Origin: Pseudooceanicola atlanticus
GTDB taxonomy: Bacteria > Pseudomonadota > Alphaproteobacteria > Rhodobacterales > Rhodobacteraceae
Length of the DNA: 64,000 nt
NCBI RefSeq assembly: GCF_000768315.1
Contig: NZ_AQQX01000003.1
Coordinates: 62,001 to 126,000 of the forward strand
Direction: 5' to 3'
Shown piece after piece: positions 5,578 to 46,260 of the stretch; within the stretch, counting starts at the first letter, position 1, and each line of letters opens with the position of its first letter. The notes beneath the pieces are model-generated. The model ran no database searches, was not told the DNA's origin, and worked only from the letters and a program-made list of their open reading frames with translations. The translations under genes were made by a program, and so were the position numbers.

Positions 5578-7398
5578 TCAACCTGCTGAGGTTTCGGCCT
5601 TTTCCTCAAGCTCCAGCCATTCCTCCTCAGCGGCGGCCAGGGCTTTCTGCCGCTCCACCAGCGCCTCGGTGCCCTTGGCGAATTTCACCGGTTCCTCGGA
5701 ATAGAGGTTCGGCTGGGCCAGGAAATCCTCGAGCTTGGCGATTTCCGCGGTCAGGCGGTCGATCACGCCGGGCAGTTCCTCCAGCCGGTGGCGTTCGGTG
5801 AAACTCAGCCCGTCGGCTTCGGCTTTGGGCGTGGCGGCGGGGGTGGTTTCCTTGCGCGGCTTGGCCGTGCCCTTCGCCACCGGTGCATCGGCAGATTTCT
5901 GCGCCTGGTAATCGCTCCACCCGCCGGCATAGACGGTGACGCGCCCGCGCCCCTCGAAGGCAATGGTGGTGGCGGCGACGCGGTCGATGAAATCCCGGTC
6001 GTGGCTGACCAGCAGGACCGTACCGTCATAATCGTCCAGCAATTCCTGCAACAGATCGAGCGTTTCGATATCCAGGTCGTTGGTCGGTTCGTCCAGCACC
6101 AGCAGGTTGCTTTCCCGTGCCATAAGCTTGGCCAGAAGCAGTCGCGCCTTTTCCCCGCCCGACAGGGACCGGACCGGCGCACGCGCCTGCGCCTCGTCGA
6201 AGAGGAACTCCTTGAGATAGCCCACGACATGTTTCGGCTGACCGCGCACCAGCACCTGGTCGGCCTGGCCGGAGACGCGCATTTCCTTGTCGCCGACGAG
6301 GTTTTCCCAAAGGCTCTGATCGGGGTCGAGCGCGGCACGGCTCTGATCGAAGACCGCCGGCAGGATGTTGGAGCCCTGGGTGACCGTTCCCTCGTCCGGT
6401 GCGATTTCGCCCATCAGCAGCTTGATCAGGGTCGTCTTGCCCACCCCGTTCGGCCCGACAAAGGCGACGCGGTCGCCGCGCATGATACGCAGGTCCAGCC
6501 CGTTGACGATGACCTCGTCACCGAAGCGTTTCGTCAGGCCCGTCGCCTCGATCACCTTGCGGCCGGATTTGGGACCGGCGCTCAACTCCATCGCCGCGAC
6601 GCCCTGGCGCTTGATCTGCGCGGCGCGTTCGGCGCGCAGGTCCTGAAGCGCGCGCACGCGGCCCTGGTTGCGCTTGCGACGGGCCGAGATGCCCTCGACG
6701 GCCCAGCGGGCCTCGGCCTTGATCTTGCGGTTCAGCTTGTGGCGGGCAATGTCCTCTTCTTCCCAGAGCTTGTCGCGCCAGGCCTCGAACCCGGCAAAGC
6801 CCTCTTCCTGCCGTCGGACCGCCCCACGATCGATCCAGAGCGTGCCGCGGGTCAGCGCCTTGAGAAACGCGCGGTCGTGCGAGATCAGGACAAAGCCCGC
6901 ACGGGTCTGTTTCAGCTCTGCTTCCAGCCACGCGATCGCCTCGATATCCAGGTGGTTGGTCGGCTCGTCCAGGAGCATCAGGTCCGGCGCCTCGGCCATC
7001 AGCCGCGCCAGCGCCGCCCGCCGCCGCTCCCCGCCAGAGGCCGTGTCGACCGGGCGGGCCGGGTCGAATTTCAGACCTTCGCTGGCCATTTCGACCTTGT
7101 AATGTTCGCTGGGATCCAGGCTGGCAGACGCAAAATCGCCCAGGGTCGCATAGGCGCCCATATCCGGATCCTGCTCCATGTAGCCGACGGACACGCCGGG
7201 CGACACGATCCGGTCGCCGCGGTCGACATCGACAAGGCCCGCCATCACCTTCATCAGCGTGGATTTGCCCGATCCGTTGCGCCCGACCAGTGCCAGCCGG
7301 TCCCCCGGCTGCACGACCAGCGACAAAGCATCAAAGACAGGATCGCCCCCGAAGGTGAGCGAGATTTCAGACAATTGCAAAAGGGGTGTACGTGCCAT
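5578..7398 (-). CDS. uup: ABC-F ATPase, Uup-like
   Basis: 606-residue soluble protein with two ABC ATPase domains and no membrane segments. The first Walker A is GRNGSGKS at residues 39-46 with signature SGGERRR; the second is GPNGVGKTT near 315 with signature LSGGEKAR. A lysine/glutamate-rich linker joins them, and the C-terminal 80 residues look like the coiled coil of Uup. ABC-F proteins act at the ribosome or on branched DNA. Uup rather than EttA is favoured by the C-terminal extension. The start lies 118 bases downstream of the olsB stop on the same strand, with a hairpin repeat between them. Confidence 0.85.
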   Translation of the reverse strand: MARTPLLQLSEISLTFGGDPVFDALSLVVQPGDRLALVGRNGSGKSTLMKVMAGLVDVDRGDRIVSPGVSVGYMEQDPDMGAYATLGDFASASLDPSEHYKVEMASEGLKFDPARPVDTASGGERRRAALARLMAEAPDLMLLDEPTNHLDIEAIAWLEAELKQTRAGFVLISHDRAFLKALTRGTLWIDRGAVRRQEEGFAGFEAWRDKLWEEEDIARHKLNRKIKAEARWAVEGISARRKRNQGRVRALQDLRAERAAQIKRQGVAAMELSAGPKSGRKVIEATGLTKRFGDEVIVNGLDLRIMRGDRVAFVGPNGVGKTTLIKLLMGEIAPDEGTVTQGSNILPAVFDQSRAALDPDQSLWENLVGDKEMRVSGQADQVLVRGQPKHVVGYLKEFLFDEAQARAPVRSLSGGEKARLLLAKLMARESNLLVLDEPTNDLDIETLDLLQELLDDYDGTVLLVSHDRDFIDRVAATTIAFEGRGRVTVYAGGWSDYQAQKSADAPVAKGTAKPRKETTPAATPKAEADGLSFTERHRLEELPGVIDRLTAEIAKLEDFLAQPNLYSEEPVKFAKGTEALVERQKALAAAEEEWLELEEKAETSAG

Positions 7399-24638: not shown

Positions 24639-24962
24639 ATGCAATTGCCCCCCAAAGTGACCGACCGCGCCTTCGAACGCCTTGCCGAAATCGGTGCCGG
24701 CGACCAGGGTCAGGCCCTGCGCGTCGCCGTGGAAGGTGGGGGATGTTCCGGCTTTCAATACGAGATCAAGCTGGACGACATCGCCGATGGCGACCTCGTC
24801 CTGGAAGGCAACGGGCAGAAGGTCGTGGTCGACGACGTGTCCCTGCCCTTCCTGTCCGGCGCCGTGATCGATTTCGCGGATGAACTGATCGGCGCGCGTT
24901 TCGTGATCGAGAACCCGAACGCCACCAGTTCCTGCGGCTGCGGCACGTCCTTTTCCATGTAA
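24639..24962 (+). CDS. erpA: A-type Fe-S carrier (ErpA/IscA)
   Basis: 107-residue HesB/IscA family protein that carries assembled Fe-S clusters to apo-enzymes. The three ligand cysteines are C36 (GGGCSGFQY) and C99/C101 (SSCGCGTSF). ATG at 24639 follows a purine-rich GAAGAGAGG. The name erpA is used by family; IscA or SufA cannot be excluded. Lies alone between dgt and the EamA-type gene. Confidence 0.9.
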   Translation: MQLPPKVTDRAFERLAEIGAGDQGQALRVAVEGGGCSGFQYEIKLDDIADGDLVLEGNGQKVVVDDVSLPFLSGAVIDFADELIGARFVIENPNATSSCGCGTSFSM

Positions 24963-25028: not shown

Positions 25029-25955
25029 TTATTCCGCCGGCGGCATGACCGCTGCGGCGCGGTTCTGAATGCGTGCCTCGCGCCGTTTCTGCCCTGCGAA
25101 TTGCTCGTAGACCAGGTACACGCCCGAGGCGACGACGATCGCGGCCCCCAGGAACACGTTGCTGCCCGGAACTTCGCCAAAAAAGACGAGCCCGATCAAC
25201 ACCATCCAGACGAATTGCAGGTTCATCAGCGGTGTCGCCGTATAGGCGGGCAGCAGGCGCAGCGCGACGACCAGCAACCAGCGCGCGCCGAAAAGCAGCG
25301 CCGCATAGGCAACTGCCAGCCCGAGATCCGTGAGTGGCATGGGCTTGAAGACAAAGGGCAGGATGGCGGCCATCACCACCATGTTCGTGAGGTTCGGGAA
25401 GAAGACCAGCGCAAGCGAATTGCATTCATACCGGCCCACATATCGCGCCATGACCATGGACAGCGTGCCCGAGAAACAGGCCAGCAACGCCACCGCATGA
25501 CCCAGCGTTATTGCCTGCACGCCTTCCGGGAACAGGCACATCACGCCGACGAACCCGGCGGCAAGCGCCGCCCAGACCCGCATCGGCACACGTTCCCGCA
25601 GGATCGGGCCGGACATCAGGCCGGACATGATCGGCATCAGGCCGATGAAGATGAAGACCTCCGCGAAGGCCAGCAGACGGAACGCATAGAAAAAGGACAC
25701 GCCCGCCACGACCGTCGCAACGGACCGGATCGCCATGGCATAGGGCCGCGTCGTGCGCAGCCCGCCCTCTACGGGACGCGCGCGATTGGCCAGAACACAG
25801 AACAGCGCCACCAGCCCGCCGGAAACGGCGTAAAGCTGCGGCGCTGCATAGCCCCCGGCCAGAAGCTTGGTGATCCCGTCCGCGGACGAGATCAAAGCAG
25901 TGTAGATAAGAACCAGGGTCGCCCCGGTCAGTGCTGCGACAGAGCCTGCCTTCAT
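25029..25955 (-). CDS. EamA-family (DMT) transporter
   Basis: 308 residues with about ten membrane helices in two EamA repeats, the drug/metabolite transporter layout. Members usually export small metabolites, amino acids or peptides-like compounds. The ATG at 25955 overlaps the stop of the upstream 363-residue gene by 4 bases (ATGA), so it is translationally coupled to it and, through it, to the FASGSAP repeat gene. This coupling is the reason to suspect that it moves something made by that operon; the substrate is unknown. Confidence 0.85.
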   Translation of the reverse strand: MKAGSVAALTGATLVLIYTALISSADGITKLLAGGYAAPQLYAVSGGLVALFCVLANRARPVEGGLRTTRPYAMAIRSVATVVAGVSFFYAFRLLAFAEVFIFIGLMPIMSGLMSGPILRERVPMRVWAALAAGFVGVMCLFPEGVQAITLGHAVALLACFSGTLSMVMARYVGRYECNSLALVFFPNLTNMVVMAAILPFVFKPMPLTDLGLAVAYAALLFGARWLLVVALRLLPAYTATPLMNLQFVWMVLIGLVFFGEVPGSNVFLGAAIVVASGVYLVYEQFAGQKRREARIQNRAAAVMPPAE

Positions 25956-27043
25956 GCCCTCAGAACCTCCGTTCTTGGTGCGGACATGCCCGTCCGGGCG
26001 AAGCCGGCAAAGAAGTCCTCGAAACAATCGGTGGCGGCCTCGGCCCGCAGCAGCATGTCGGCGCAATCCTCGCTGACATTCTCGCAGACATAGTCGCGCA
26101 TCAGGTGCCAGTCCGACGACCGACGCGTCTGAAGGCCGTAAATGATTTCGGACAATTCGCGCAGCGGCGCCGCGGTCATCCGATCGGAATGGAAGCTGAC
26201 AGGTCCCGCCTGGATCGGCGCCTGGAAGCTCTTGCCTCCCGCTTCACTCAACGCCCAGTTGCAAACCAGGTATTCGTGGTAGTCGTCTTGCCGCACCGCG
26301 TGCTCCCCTTCCGCGACGGCAAAACGCCCCGTCACATTGGCGACCGCATCATCCCAATCGGAGGGCGGCACAGCCCCACAGTAGCGCATCGCGACACAAA
26401 CTTCAGCAAGCAAATCCCAGTTACAGTCCAAAAATGCGAGTGTTCCCGTGAATTTAAGGCTTTGCAGAAATGCAGCGTCCACGTGCGGATCCTTGCGACC
26501 ATACTCGCTCAGATAGAAGGCAATGTGGGTCAATTCGTAGGCCGCTTTCTTGTTCGGGATCGAAAACGTCGCGCTTCGGCGTCCGAAGTTTTTCAACTTG
26601 TCGTTGACCAGCGTCACGTCATCACCGCAATTGACGCCAACACGCGTCAAAAGGCGAATGGCCTCGCCACGCTGAAGGTCGGACAGCTCTGCTTCGACCA
26701 GTCCCTGGTTGGCCACCCATTGGGCCAGCGCCTCGCCCTTGCCGGCGCCCAGGCCGAGGGATTCGAGGTCCATGCAGATCGACAAAAGGAATCGGTAATA
26801 TTGGGGGAAGAACTCCAGCCGTTCGCCTATCGTGTCGTAGAACGCCTCGTGGGCGATCAGCGCGTCACGGTCGACTTCCTGGCCGGTGCATTCCAGGATG
26901 TTCAGGATCTCGGCGTTTTCCTTGAGCCAGAACACGTCTCCTTCGTCGCGGCGATGCTGCGCGAAGGTTTCCAGCAGGGCCGCGTGTCGCGCGGCCCGCT
27001 GTTCGCTGCGGGAGGGGAAGGTGAGGTGGATGACATTGGACAT
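25952..27043 (-). CDS. Uncharacterised helical protein, partner of repeat protein
   Basis: 363 residues, no signal peptide or membrane helix. I cannot assign a function. It looks mostly alpha-helical, with a conspicuous motif YELTHIAFYLSEYG at 169-182 and two CNW triads, in LDCNWDLLAEV (about 205-215) and HEYLVCNWAL (about 256-265), which suggest an internally repeated helical toroid with His/Cys/Asp residues lining a site. AAAGGAG stands 8 bases before the ATG. It starts 60 bases after the repeat gene and is coupled to the EamA gene. Base composition in the middle (26390-26480) is noticeably less GC-rich than that of neighbouring genes. An enzyme acting on the repeat protein is a hypothesis only. 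Confidence 0.75.
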   Translation of the reverse strand: MSNVIHLTFPSRSEQRAARHAALLETFAQHRRDEGDVFWLKENAEILNILECTGQEVDRDALIAHEAFYDTIGERLEFFPQYYRFLLSICMDLESLGLGAGKGEALAQWVANQGLVEAELSDLQRGEAIRLLTRVGVNCGDDVTLVNDKLKNFGRRSATFSIPNKKAAYELTHIAFYLSEYGRKDPHVDAAFLQSLKFTGTLAFLDCNWDLLAEVCVAMRYCGAVPPSDWDDAVANVTGRFAVAEGEHAVRQDDYHEYLVCNWALSEAGGKSFQAPIQAGPVSFHSDRMTAAPLRELSEIIYGLQTRRSSDWHLMRDYVCENVSEDCADMLLRAEAATDCFEDFFAGFARTGMSAPRTEVLRA

Positions 27044-27063
27044 TGTAGTTCTCCTTTGATCAT

Positions 27064-27082
27064 CGGGGCCAGACCAGCCCCG
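27064..27082 (-). terminator. Intra-operon hairpin after repeat gene
   Basis: CGGGGC and GCCCCG arms (6 bp, 7-nt loop) lie between the repeat-protein stop and the ribosome binding site of the next gene. No T-tract follows, so it is more likely a partial terminator or an RNA-stabilising stem that lets the repeat gene be expressed above its partners. Confidence 0.4.
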
Positions 27083-27103
27083 TCCCGTCAGATGCGTCGC
27101 GAC

Positions 27104-28120
27104 TTAGCTGCCCGAAGCGAAGGCCTGGACTTCGTCGCCCGCGTTCACGTCGGCGCCGGCCGTCGGTGCGGAACCCGAAGCGAAGGCTTCGACTGCATCG
27201 CCGGAGGTCACGTCGGAAGCCGTCGGAGCGGAACCGGAGGCGAACATCTCGGTCGCGTCGCCGGAGGTCGCGTCGGAAGCGGTCGGTGCGGAGCCCGAAG
27301 CAAACATCTCGGTCGCGTCGCCGGAGGTCGCGTCGGAAGCGGTCGGTGCGGAGCCCGAAGCAAACATCTCGGTCGCGTCGCCGGAGGTCGCGTCGGAAGC
27401 GGTCGGAGCGGAACCGGAAGCAAACATCTCGGTCGCGTCGCCGGAGGTCACGCTGGAGGCAGTCGGAGCCGAACCGGAAGCAAACATCTCGGTCGCGTCG
27501 CCGGAGGTCGCGTCGGAAGCGGTCGGAGCGGAACCGGAAGCAAACATCTCGGTCGCGTCGCCGGAGGTCACGCTGGAGGCAGTCGGAGCCGAACCGGAAG
27601 CAAACATCTCGGTCGCATCGCCGGAGGTCACGTCGGAAGCGGTCGGTGCGGAGCCCGAAGCAAACATCTCGGTCGCATCGCCGGAGGTCACGTCGGAAGC
27701 GGTCGGTGCGGAGCCCGAAGCAAACATCTCGGTCGCATCGCCGTTGCCCATTTTGGAAGCGCTCGGAGCGGAACCGGAGGCGAACATTTCGACTGCATCG
27801 CCGTTACGAGCGTCGGAAGAGCCGACCGGGGCGGAACCGGAGGCAAACATCTCGACCGCGTCGCCGGACTGAGATTCGGACTTGACAGCCGGCGCAGAGC
27901 CCGAAGCGAACATCTGAACAGCGTCACCGGACAGGGCGCGAACCGAGGCCGAAGGGGCCGAACCCGAGGCGAACATTTCGACCGCGTCGCCGGTCAGGGA
28001 AGAGGACGCGACGGGCGCCGAACCGGAGGCAAACATCTCGAGACCCTCGCCATCGAGCAGCGTGTTTTCCTCAACGATGACAGAAGCTTGGCGGGTGTTG
28101 TTTTTGCGAATTGCAGACAT
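27104..28120 (-). CDS. FASGSAP tandem-repeat protein
   Basis: 338 residues, no cysteine, signal peptide or membrane helix. A 26-residue head (MSAIRKNNTRQASVIVEENT, then LLDGEG) is followed by 15 full repeats of 20-21 residues, consensus EMFASGSAPTASDxTSGDAT, and a final truncated copy ending in FASGS. The first four and last repeats diverge; the middle ones are nearly identical at DNA level. Each unit has one acidic pair and many Ser/Thr/Ala, so the protein should be acidic and disordered. The ATG at 28120 fits GGGAGACC upstream; an in-frame start at 28195 is less likely. It opens an operon with the 363-residue protein and an exporter. A multi-core peptide precursor is one reading; a disordered structural or surface protein is another. 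Confidence 0.85.
   Translation of the reverse strand: MSAIRKNNTRQASVIVEENTLLDGEGLEMFASGSAPVASSSLTGDAVEMFASGSAPSASVRALSGDAVQMFASGSAPAVKSESQSGDAVEMFASGSAPVGSSDARNGDAVEMFASGSAPSASKMGNGDATEMFASGSAPTASDVTSGDATEMFASGSAPTASDVTSGDATEMFASGSAPTASSVTSGDATEMFASGSAPTASDATSGDATEMFASGSAPTASSVTSGDATEMFASGSAPTASDATSGDATEMFASGSAPTASDATSGDATEMFASGSAPTASDATSGDATEMFASGSAPTASDVTSGDAVEAFASGSAPTAGADVNAGDEVQAFASGS
27241..27780 (-). repeat. Nine-unit 60-bp in-frame tandem repeat
   Basis: Nine consecutive units of exactly 60 bp, most differing at only a few positions. 27361-27480 is repeated identically at 27481-27600, and 27601-27660 identically at 27661-27720. All units are in frame inside the FASGSAP gene. Further diverged 60-63 bp units flank the block on both sides. 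Confidence 0.95.
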
Positions 28121-28488
28121 CTTCGTGGTCTCCCAGTTGGTGTTGGATGACCAAACGTTTGCCCGGAAATCGCGATCCGAAAAGCCCAAATTCAACCTAT
28201 ACGTGTGCAGGATTTTGTGGCACGCGAGGCGATTCGCGTTAACCCGTTGAAACGATTAAATCGGGCGTGATCGAATTTTTTTCTTAACTTCGACACAAAG
28301 GTGCTCCATTGCGGTCCCCAGGAGCATCATGAGCTACGAATCGACTCGAATCATCGGGGTTGCGTGACTCAACATCGGACAGCTCGACCGAGAATCTGAC
28401 GCTGATTTGAACAACTTAGACGCTACTCAGCGTCGCTTGCCCCGGAACCGGGGATGCGCGATAGATGGGAAAACCATCGGAGTCGGCC
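28121..28488. promoter_or_regulatory. AT-richer divergent intergenic region
   Basis: 368 bases between the repeat gene (minus) and xthA (plus), clearly richer in A/T than its surroundings, with a T7 tract near 28277. It should hold promoters for both genes, but I cannot pick convincing -35/-10 pairs. Structures seen: GACGCT/AGCGTC hairpin (28419-28434, 4-nt loop), and an AGGAG-led 12-codon ORF at 28329-28367. Confidence 0.4.
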
Positions 28489-29271
28489 ATGCGTATCGCC
28501 ACGTTCAACATCAACGGCATCAAGGCGCGGCATGCCGCGCTCACCGATTGGCTCGACGAGGCCTCTCCGGATGTCGTCCTCCTGCAAGAGATCAAGTCCA
28601 TCGACGAGAGCTTCCCCCGCGAGATATTCGAAGAACGCGGCTACAATGTCGAAACCCACGGACAGAAAAGCTTCAACGGCGTCGGCATCCTGTCAAAACA
28701 TCCGCTCGAAGACGTCACCCGCGGCCTGCCCGGCGATGACGAGGACGAACAGGCCCGCTGGATCGAGGCGACGGTCGTCGGCGAAAAGACCGCCCTGCGG
28801 CTCTGCGGGCTCTATCTGCCGAACGGAAACCCCGCGCCGGGGCCGAAATACGATTACAAACTGTCCTGGATGGAACGCCTGAAGGCCCGCGCGCAGGACC
28901 TGCTGGAGCAGGAAGAACCCGCGCTTATGGCGGGTGACTACAACATCATCCCCCAGGCCGAAGACGCCGCCCGCCCCGATGCCTGGCGCGAGGACGCGCT
29001 GTTCCGCCTCGACAGCCGGCAGGCCTGGCGGCGGATCCTGAACCTCGGCTTCACCGAGGCATTCCGCACCCGCAACCCGGCGCCCGGTCAGTATTCCTTC
29101 TGGGATTACCAGGCCGGTGCCTGGCAGCGGAACGACGGGATCCGTATCGACCATGTGCTGATGACGCCGCAATGCGCGGACTTGCTGACCGATGCGGGCA
29201 TCGAAGCCGGTCTGCGCGGACGGGAAAAACCCTCGGACCACGTGCCCGTCTGGGTCGACCTCGACGTCTAG
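28489..29271 (+). CDS. xthA: Exodeoxyribonuclease III
   Basis: 260-residue EEP-superfamily nuclease, AP endonuclease and 3'-5' exonuclease of base-excision repair. Motifs: MRIATFNINGIKAR at the N-terminus, the metal-binding Glu in LLQEIKS, AGDYNIIP, and the terminal catalytic His in SDHVPVWVD. The ATG at 28489 begins right at the conserved N-terminus; an upstream ATG at 28465 would add eight residues. Confidence 0.95.
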   Translation: MRIATFNINGIKARHAALTDWLDEASPDVVLLQEIKSIDESFPREIFEERGYNVETHGQKSFNGVGILSKHPLEDVTRGLPGDDEDEQARWIEATVVGEKTALRLCGLYLPNGNPAPGPKYDYKLSWMERLKARAQDLLEQEEPALMAGDYNIIPQAEDAARPDAWREDALFRLDSRQAWRRILNLGFTEAFRTRNPAPGQYSFWDYQAGAWQRNDGIRIDHVLMTPQCADLLTDAGIEAGLRGREKPSDHVPVWVDLDV

Positions 29272-44031: not shown

Positions 44032-46260
44032 TCAGCGCTTGCGCTTCGGCGGCTGCGACCCGCCGGGTTTGCCGCCCTTGGGCGGCGTGAACCGCTTCGA
44101 GGTATCCGACGCGGCAGAGCGTTTCGGCGCGCCCTTGGGCGCTCCCGGCTTCCCGCCACCGGGCTTGCCGCCCGTGGGCTTGCCACCCGGTTTGCCGCCC
44201 GAAGGTTTACCCCCCGGCTTGCCGCTCCAGGGTTTGCCGCCCCCCTTGCCCGGCGCCCCTTTGCCGCCGCCGCGTGCGTCACCGCGATCCTGGCCGCGCG
44301 GCTTGGCATTGCCATGGGCGCCGTCATCGCCCCGGTCGGCTTTGTCGCGCTTCCATTTCGGGGCCGCCTCGCCACCGCGGGCGGTCTTGGGCTTGGGTTT
44401 GCCCTCGGGCTTGCCCTCGTATCTGCGCGGCTCGTCCTCTTCGTAACGCGGAGGACGCGGCGCACGCACCTTGCCCTCGTCCCAGACCTTCTTGGAGGAC
44501 GGTTTGCGCGCCGGGGCCGGACGCTCTGTCCGGGCCACGGGCGCCTCGGATTGCGCGGACTCCGCCGGGGCGGCCTCGGCCGCGGGCGCGGCGTTCACCG
44601 GCGCCTCCCGGCGCGGCTTGTCCTTGTAGGGTTTGCCACCCGACGGCCGGCGGTCGTCCCATTCGGGGCGCGGGCCACGGCTGTGATCCGGCGGGCCGTC
44701 TGCGGGCCGAACCGTCACGCCGTCTTCCAGCGTCTTGCCGTCGCCCAGCGAGGCAAGGAAATTGTCGACCGCAGGCTCTGCCAATTCGACGAACGTCTCC
44801 TTGGGCTGCACCCGGATCGCGCCGATGGATTCCTTGGTCAGGTTGCCCGCGCGGCACAGCATCGGCAGGATCCAGCGCGGCTCTGCCCGGTCGTCGCGGC
44901 CCACGGACAGGGCGAACCAGCGGCTCGGGCCGAAAGGCGCACGTTCCTTCCGCTCGGGGCGGGCATCCGGCGCCGACAGCTCTTCGGGCGCGGAATTGTT
45001 GGCACGGTAGAGCCGTAGACAGGCCGCCGCGATGGCTTCGGGCGATTGCAGGCCCAGCAGGCGCTCGGCGAATTCGGCTTCTTCTGGGGTGATTTCCTCG
45101 GTCCAGGCGGGATCGGCCAGAAGGCGTTCCTCATCCTTGCGACGGATGTCTTCCGCGCTCGGCGCGGTGATCCACTCGGCGGTCACGCGCGAAGACTTCA
45201 GCAGCCGCTCCGCCCGTTTCGCCAGCTTCGGCGGCACGACCAGAGCCGAGATCCCCTTGCGCCCGGCACGACCCGTCCGGCCCGAACGGTGCAGCAGGCC
45301 TTCGGTGTTCTTCGGCAGTTCGGCATGGATCACCAGTTCCAGGTTCGGCAGGTCGATGCCCCGCGCCGCCACGTCGGTGGCCACGCAGACCCGCGCCCGC
45401 CCGTCCCGCATCGCCTGAAGCGCGTGGGACCGTTCGGTCTGGCTCAGCTCGCCCGACAGGCAGACGACCTGGAACCCACGGTTGGCAAAGCGCGCGGTCA
45501 GCCGGTTCACCGTCGCCCGCGTATTGGCAAAGACGATGGCGTTCTGCGCCTCGTGGAATCGCAGCACGTTGATGATCGCGTTTTCCGCATCATGCTGCGC
45601 CACCGTCAGTGCCTGGTAGGTGATGTCGCTGTGCTGGGATTTCTCCGACACCGTCGTGACCCGCACCGCGTCGCGCTGGTATTTCTGGGCCAGCGTCGCG
45701 ATCATCGGCGGCACCGTGGCCGAGAACATCAGCGTGCGCCGGTCCTCCGGCGCCTCGCCCAGCATGAATTCCAGGTCCTCGCGGAAGCCCAGGTCCAGCA
45801 TCTCGTCGGCCTCGTCCAGCACCACCGCCCGCAGGCTGGCCATGTCCAGCGATCCGCGCTTGATATGGTCGACCAGGCGCCCCGGCGTGCCCACCACGAT
45901 ATGCGCCCCACGTTCCAGCGCCCGGCGTTCGTCGCGCATGTCCATGCCCCCCACGCAGGAGGTCACACGCGCCCCGGCCTTGGCATAGAGCCAGTCAAGC
46001 TCGCGTTTTACCTGGAAGGCCAGTTCCCGCGTCGGCGCGATCACCAGTGCCAGCGGCGTCGCCGCCGGGCCCAGCCGGCCCGCCTCGTCCAGCAACGTCG
46101 GCCCGATCGCCAGGCCGAACCCCACCGTCTTGCCCGACCCGGTCTGGGCCGAAACCAGCAGGTCCGCGCCCTCCAGCTCAGGATCGGTCACCGCCTCCTG
46201 TACCGGGGTGAGCGTGTCATATCCGCGCTCGGCGAGCGCATCGGAGAGGGTCTGGATCAT
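44032..46260 (-). CDS. DEAD-box RNA helicase (DeaD/DbpA-like)
   Basis: 742 residues. Helicase motifs: I AQTGSGKT (38-45), Ia PTREL, TPGR (125-128), II DEAD (149-152), III SAT (180-182), V ARGID and VI HRSGRTGR (324-331). A DbpA-type RNA-binding domain follows at about 460-540 (FALSVGRDDRAEPRWILPML). The last 200 residues are low-complexity and basic, ending in repeated GGKPxGGKPGG units. Likely acts in ribosome assembly or mRNA turnover; the DbpA-like domain favours rRNA. Confidence 0.9.
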   Translation of the reverse strand: MIQTLSDALAERGYDTLTPVQEAVTDPELEGADLLVSAQTGSGKTVGFGLAIGPTLLDEAGRLGPAATPLALVIAPTRELAFQVKRELDWLYAKAGARVTSCVGGMDMRDERRALERGAHIVVGTPGRLVDHIKRGSLDMASLRAVVLDEADEMLDLGFREDLEFMLGEAPEDRRTLMFSATVPPMIATLAQKYQRDAVRVTTVSEKSQHSDITYQALTVAQHDAENAIINVLRFHEAQNAIVFANTRATVNRLTARFANRGFQVVCLSGELSQTERSHALQAMRDGRARVCVATDVAARGIDLPNLELVIHAELPKNTEGLLHRSGRTGRAGRKGISALVVPPKLAKRAERLLKSSRVTAEWITAPSAEDIRRKDEERLLADPAWTEEITPEEAEFAERLLGLQSPEAIAAACLRLYRANNSAPEELSAPDARPERKERAPFGPSRWFALSVGRDDRAEPRWILPMLCRAGNLTKESIGAIRVQPKETFVELAEPAVDNFLASLGDGKTLEDGVTVRPADGPPDHSRGPRPEWDDRRPSGGKPYKDKPRREAPVNAAPAAEAAPAESAQSEAPVARTERPAPARKPSSKKVWDEGKVRAPRPPRYEEDEPRRYEGKPEGKPKPKTARGGEAAPKWKRDKADRGDDGAHGNAKPRGQDRGDARGGGKGAPGKGGGKPWSGKPGGKPSGGKPGGKPTGGKPGGGKPGAPKGAPKRSAASDTSKRFTPPKGGKPGGSQPPKRKR

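Follow-up and report, generated by a model that had tools for sequence, protein, structure and literature searches.

The window analysed here, a 64,000-nucleotide stretch of Pseudooceanicola atlanticus DNA, shows three consecutive genes on the minus strand: a repeat gene (27104..28120) encoding a protein of 338 amino acids (aa), a gene (25952..27043) encoding a 363-aa protein of the Pfam family DUF6902, and a gene (25029..25955) encoding a 308-aa EamA/DMT-type exporter (PF00892). Judged from sequence, this two- or three-gene unit appears to make many copies of a tiny peptide in many marine bacteria of what we take to be the Roseobacter group, with the repeat protein as the putative multi-core precursor and the DUF6902 protein as its candidate maturase. 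The repeat gene and the DUF6902 gene are separated by 60 nt (27044..27103), and the DUF6902 stop overlaps the exporter start by 4 nt (ATGA); the coordinates thus bear out the gene order, spacing and overlap described in an earlier note on this DNA. In translation, the first 23 residues of the precursor (MSAIRK..., 28052..28120, minus strand) form a leader-like head. The head is followed by a repeat array (27107..28051, minus strand) with a period of 60-63 nt and the unit G-D-A-x-E-M-[FASGS]-AP-spacer, the final copy of which reaches the stop codon. The 16 exact copies of FASGS are spaced 20-21 aa apart and the 338 aa contain no cysteine, as the note had described. It had also counted a head of 26 residues; the head is indeed short, and its length is better put at about 23-29 aa, because Gly24 is the first glycine of the unit frame and the first FASGS begins at residue 30. 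A GC-rich hairpin in the 60-nt gap seemed plausible by eye as a conserved RNA element and was dropped on its fold scores, since none of 12 single folds was outstanding (z -1.80 to 1.06) and RNAalifold gave zero consensus pairs over 36 gap sequences.

The repeat is far from chance expectation, the top 5-mer in 2000 shuffles of the window precursor having a count of 5, versus 16 for FASGS. All 16 window cores are FASGS, encoded with 2 to 4 codons per position. Copy number ranges from about 2 to 21 over 132 arrays, which agrees with the variation that the note had expected, and 10 of these arrays have just 2-3 copies. The head is partly conserved: over 41 aligned precursors M1 and Gly24 are invariant and Ala3 is kept in at least 90%. 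For the core analysis, the frame G-x5-[FYM] served to anchor the units of the 117 arrays with at least four units, with positions +1 to +4 unused for anchoring. The nonsynonymous share of differing codon pairs is 0.126, 0.089, 0.146 and 0.133 at +1 to +4, 0.375 and 0.273 at +5 and +6, and 0.60-0.82 in the spacer (-5 to -1 and +7); at position 0 it is 0.335, although the conservation of Phe0 is not an independent figure because both spacer frames used demand F, Y or M there. Under the stricter spacer frame, 789 of 803 units carry the dominant tetrapeptide of their array, and the 14 exceptions include L142 and the mixed Ruegeria-type arrays (STSC with SSGS). Between arrays, positions +1, +3 and +4 are variable (about 1.7 bits each) and position +2 is Ser in 104 and Thr in 10 of the 117.

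Changes of core are concerted. A FastTree tree built from 127 DUF6902 proteins implies 50 or more changes of the whole core, and the residue at +3 tracks the tree (18 changes against a shuffled mean of 51.2, with 0 of 200 shuffles as low). Close relatives can differ in every copy: the DUF6902 proteins of L153 and L150 are 95% identical, yet their precursors carry FTSGS in 7/7 and FSSGS in 6/6 units, and those of L168 and L198 are 81% identical with FTSSM and FTSSL cores. A selfish or neutral tandem repeat was rejected, because copies switch jointly with mixed codons, and cores differ by synonymous codons and hardly by residue while spacers are free. A core that is uniform within an array and variable across species is, at the level of sequence, the signature of a multi-core precursor giving one short peptide. 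The array ends exactly at core residue +4 in 101 of 133 arrays, which suggests release of the core by proteolysis. Instead of the 2-kDa peptides that the note had anticipated, each array would thereby yield a single product, 4-5 residues long and with +4 as its C-terminal residue; Phe0 would either open this peptide or be the P1 residue for a cleavage.

Several precursors depart from the common form. Four Ruegeria-type arrays (L075, L173, L181 and L182) show FSSGS at the array ends and FSTSC inside, and such a mixed precursor may give two products from one protein. The L161 array repeats FTSGSTAL, with only three residues of spacer left, which suggests that a unit of about eight residues is enough. 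The two related genomes of L129 and L130 show arrays whose core is shifted (FSTSSF / LSTSSF). In L130 the frame of DUF6902 continues open upstream through the precursor gene, which uses a different frame. Six repetitive precursors compared with Pfam gave three matches over curated cut-offs (PF02089, PF13509 and PF07016), which were judged artefacts of repetition because each spans only 15-22 residues, two have no stretch that passes alone, and the family differs from protein to protein.

The 363-aa protein, which had been described as belonging to no known family, is a full-length member of DUF6902 (PF21843; 489.9 bits against a cut-off of 27, E 4.8e-147, residues 1-351) and also exceeds the cut-off of DUF6895 (PF21836; 65.6 bits against 23.8, E 6.5e-18, residues 17-230). 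For one DUF6895 member, activity as a lasso-peptide epimerase has been reported (Shi et al., 2026, ACS Catal., as listed in the references of PMC13352647), so the statement that no known maturase is present also needs correcting. In its structural model DUF6902 looks like an alpha/alpha toroid, and the window protein keeps the residues invariant in five DUF6895 proteins (Y169, H173, G182, D210, E214, Y255 and H256). The DUF6902 family also has an invariant set of its own that is enzyme-like. Pfam and NCBIfam searches of this protein gave no protease family match and no recognised cofactor domain, phmmer matched no PDB sequence at E <= 1, and Foldseek of the model against the PDB gave 586 matches, none at E <= 0.001. 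A literature search found no paper naming DUF6902 or its accession and none containing the strings FASGSAP, FSSGSAP, FTSGSAP or FTSWSGP; DUF6895 is named in one of the papers searched. The matches listed for multi-core and epimerase literature on ribosomally synthesised and post-translationally modified peptides (RiPPs) included no paper on this system.

Distribution was surveyed in 295 genomes of the family of the window (294 genera) and 14 control genomes. DUF6902 is present in 82 of the 295 and in none of the controls; of 299 genomes sampled across the phylum, four have it, all from the same family. Scanning GTDB with the DUF6902 family alignment yielded 419 candidate stretches; 386 of them were relatives, and the best 80 were retained. 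Their genera include Pseudooceanicola, Roseovarius, Shimia, Ruegeria and Phaeobacter, others being Rhodobacteraceae or Alphaproteobacteria bins, and the close relatives in this best 80 of 386 include Pseudooceanicola batsensis (77%) and Primorskyibacter flagellatus (75%). A precursor profile was built from 41 sequences, the whole window precursor and the first 85 residues from 40 of 80 named loci. It is positive in 73 of the 295 genomes, and all 73 lie inside the 82 with DUF6902, which supports the co-occurrence proposed in the earlier note. The converse case, repeat proteins without the partner, was found in 0 of the 213 DUF6902-negative genomes. Among the nine DUF6902 genomes without a profile match, six show divergent precursors by eye (G041, G099, G174, G264, G283 and G293) and one, G139, is a contig-end fragment outside the fetched loci. 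These fetched loci number 160 (80 named and 80 unnamed), and a repeat open reading frame (ORF) lies directly upstream of DUF6902 in 80/80 of the named ones.

An EamA gene lies within 400 nt of DUF6902 in 71 of the 80 named loci. When operon-type EamA is defined as scoring at least 188 bits against the window EamA (P0003), the next EamA scoring 162, it is found in 35 of 149 genomes, and all 35 are among the 45 that are DUF6902-positive. We consider it probable that EamA exports the product where it is present.

The cassette is bordered on the left by a gene for an Fe-S biosynthesis protein (erpA-like, 24639..24962, plus strand) and on the right by one for an exonuclease III-type protein (xth-like, 28465..29271, plus strand), both assigned by Pfam. 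Seven neighbours are of housekeeping type in a Pfam scan (arginyl-tRNA synthetase, HD phosphohydrolase, Fe-S biosynthesis, endonuclease/exonuclease family, FAD-binding, DksA and AAA); argS, dgt, erpA and xth are short names that we presume to fit and use as labels for neighbour genes. The xth-like gene is upstream on the opposite strand in 74/80 and 75/80 loci of two locus sets. Of 30 genomes picked from the 213 DUF6902-negative ones, 25 have erpA and xth no more than about 1.5 kb apart, and in 16 of those 25 the gap is below 450 nt. Since erpA is close to xth in most of these genomes, the unit is a cassette that is either present or absent at one fixed place in the chromosome. A plasmid cassette was ruled out by the absence of any DUF6902 match in 72,556 plasmid records, and a defence system was set aside, as the three proteins have no PADLOC match at E <= 0.01. 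Elsewhere in the window, a DEAD-box-helicase-like protein read from translation (44032-46260, minus strand) shows a Lys/Gly/Pro-rich tail with GGKPG-type repeats at 44155-44271.

Outside the family of the window, DUF6895 genes above the cut-off are found in three of 398 phylum genomes (G398, G474 and G635), with sub-cut-off matches in G370 and G381, and on two plasmids, of Streptomyces sp. NBC_01243 and Pseudalkalibacillus hwajinpoensis. These five DUF6895 genes, which span three phyla (Streptomyces, Bacillota and the phylum of the window), each have a small ORF directly upstream: 6747-6953 before the gene at 6956-7825 in L247, 5602-5862 before 5929-6873 in L246, and further pairs in L126, L127 and L128. 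None of the five ORFs has a Pfam match above cut-off, and all share a leader-like stretch, L-x-[KQT]-[SA]-[GN]-[IL]-[ILV]-[ND]. Four of them carry segments of the types GPW[YF] or WTF[VI], such as GPWYAYHT, GPWFVLAG, GPWYIYKE or DWTFVSPNYVYKG, doubled in two of the four. Since five DUF6895 genes follow precursor-like ORFs, these ORFs are independent support for a superfamily that would act on small ribosomal precursors. On both plasmids a second protein follows DUF6895 (L246 6874-7521, L247 7888-8373); in L246 it contains QQQPDGTFG, and the DUF6895 protein of L127 (8422-9855) has a similar stretch, QQKLDGSIG, in its C-terminal extension, as if the second protein were fused to it. Viral contigs searched with one Streptomyces DUF6895 query gave six candidate stretches, none of them confirmed.

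Among known systems, the locus resembles RiPPs in having a gene-encoded precursor, with head and cores, beside a dedicated partner gene. It departs from lanthipeptides, as the window precursor lacks Cys and the three genes give no Lan family match, and from lasso peptides, as Pfam detects no RiPP recognition element (RRE), leader peptidase or macrolactam cyclase in the operon and the seven window neighbours. Cyanobactins and others are multi-core RiPP precursors, which share with the window precursor a head, repeated cores split by spacers and a variable copy number, and differ from it in that its cores have 4-5 residues, are near-identical within an array and go with a different partner enzyme. 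Fungal Kex2-processed repeat peptides are also multi-core precursors (PMC7329392), and unlike these the window precursor has no dibasic site in its spacers. Compared with the reported DUF6895 lasso-cluster epimerase, DUF6902 belongs to a homologous family with the same conserved Y/H/G/D/E/YH set, and other DUF6895 genes likewise adjoin small precursor-like ORFs, but the putative substrate here is a repeat protein holding many copies of a core of 4-5 residues. MslH, a lasso-peptide epimerase, acts on the C-terminal Trp of MslA (PMC10406935); DUF6902 would likewise epimerise a ribosomal peptide, without a sequence link to MslH in the empty phmmer search.

The best reading is probably a new multi-core RiPP type, probably epimerised. 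The repeat gene would encode a short head and many copies of one core (F-ASGS in the window), and DUF6902 would recognise the head and/or the G-D-A-x-E-M-F frame and act on each copy inside the predicted toroid cavity. The likeliest chemistry, because of the homology to the reported DUF6895 epimerase, would be the L-to-D epimerisation of one residue in the core, for which Phe0 and Ser/Thr+2 are the most conserved candidates. Unlinked proteases would then cleave on one side or the other of Phe, and behind +4, giving many identical peptides of 4-5 residues, which EamA, where present, would export. We regard a multi-core precursor with its own maturase as very likely, epimerisation as its chemistry as close to an even chance, and the complete scheme, including unlinked cleavage and EamA export, as reasonably probable. 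The interpretation in the earlier note is supported in part: its multi-core reading is strongly supported by co-occurrence, varying copy number and the uniform core, and it is amended as to maturase, exporter and peptide size.

Several observations weigh against this reading. Two cores are combined in the Ruegeria-type arrays, and 32 of 133 arrays are not scored as stopping at +4; 18 of these 32 have Trp cores, most of which continue 3-7 residues past +4. No repeat ORF is seen in G288 and G039 (2/80 fetched loci), the other two of the nine DUF6902 genomes without a profile match, the DUF6902 of G039 being the most divergent full-length match, and a DUF6895-like gene inside the family of the window (G242, L131) has no visible precursor. 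The sampled genomes are related, so the co-occurrence statistics overstate independence. The relation between DUF6902 and DUF6895 is distant (hhalign probability 88.9% over 184 columns), each of the five DUF6895 proteins either falls short of the DUF6902 cut-off or gives no score, and the epimerase link hangs on one reported DUF6895 member. The operon contains no peptidase gene. The exporter, taken in the note as coupled, does overlap DUF6902 in the window but is not universal: the operon-type EamA is missing from 10 of 45 DUF6902-positive genomes, and no such EamA is near in 29 of 160 fetched loci (21/80 unnamed and 8/80 named), some of which stop at a contig end while in many the following gene, judged by eye, is erpA- or dgt-like.

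The same multi-core system could instead have DUF6902 catalyse another reaction in its toroid (dehydration, cyclisation, acyl or prenyl transfer, or hydrolysis), the epimerase relative being a distant functional neighbour. The toroid fold is common to terpene cyclases, protein prenyltransferases and one lanthipeptide cyclase, the cores are Ser/Thr-rich and the alignment to DUF6895 is partial; we nevertheless consider this rather unlikely, as the Tyr/His/Gly/Asp/Glu/Tyr-His set is retained and the one function reported for DUF6895 is epimerisation. Thioether chemistry in particular is unlikely, because the window precursor is Cys-free and only 5 of 117 arrays have mostly Cys at +4. The regular spacing and uniform short motifs would also suit a sticker-and-spacer scaffold that self-assembles via identical stickers, with DUF6902 as chaperone or binding partner, and the top Foldseek matches, which are non-significant, include peptide-binding ARM-repeat proteins. 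Arrays of 2-3 copies, the frequent stop at +4, the EamA subfamily at most loci and the enzyme-like residues of DUF6902 make such a scaffold improbable. We give equally little credence to repeats cut into unmodified signalling peptides, with DUF6902 as a binding protein or protease: species-typical cores with concerted switches would fit a pheromone and DUF6902 has no recognised cofactor domain, but it is homologous to the reported epimerase family and matches no protease family.

A wider proposal can be made tentatively, at somewhat less than an even chance. DUF6902 and DUF6895 would form one superfamily of toroid peptide maturases, epimerases or enzymes of new chemistry, defining a new and widespread RiPP type. 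The Roseobacter array would give a single D-residue tetra- or pentapeptide in many copies, switched together between species, as for a species-typed signal or small metabolite, with dedicated EamA export. If the reading is right, the system would provide another non-radical-SAM route to D-residue peptides, through an enzyme family without a recognised cofactor domain and absent by name from the literature searched. One substrate gene and one enzyme gene would make a simple test system, and the DUF6895 precursor ORFs would open the wider superfamily to mining. A common marine lineage would then use a precursor with many copies to make a ribosomal peptide of very few residues.

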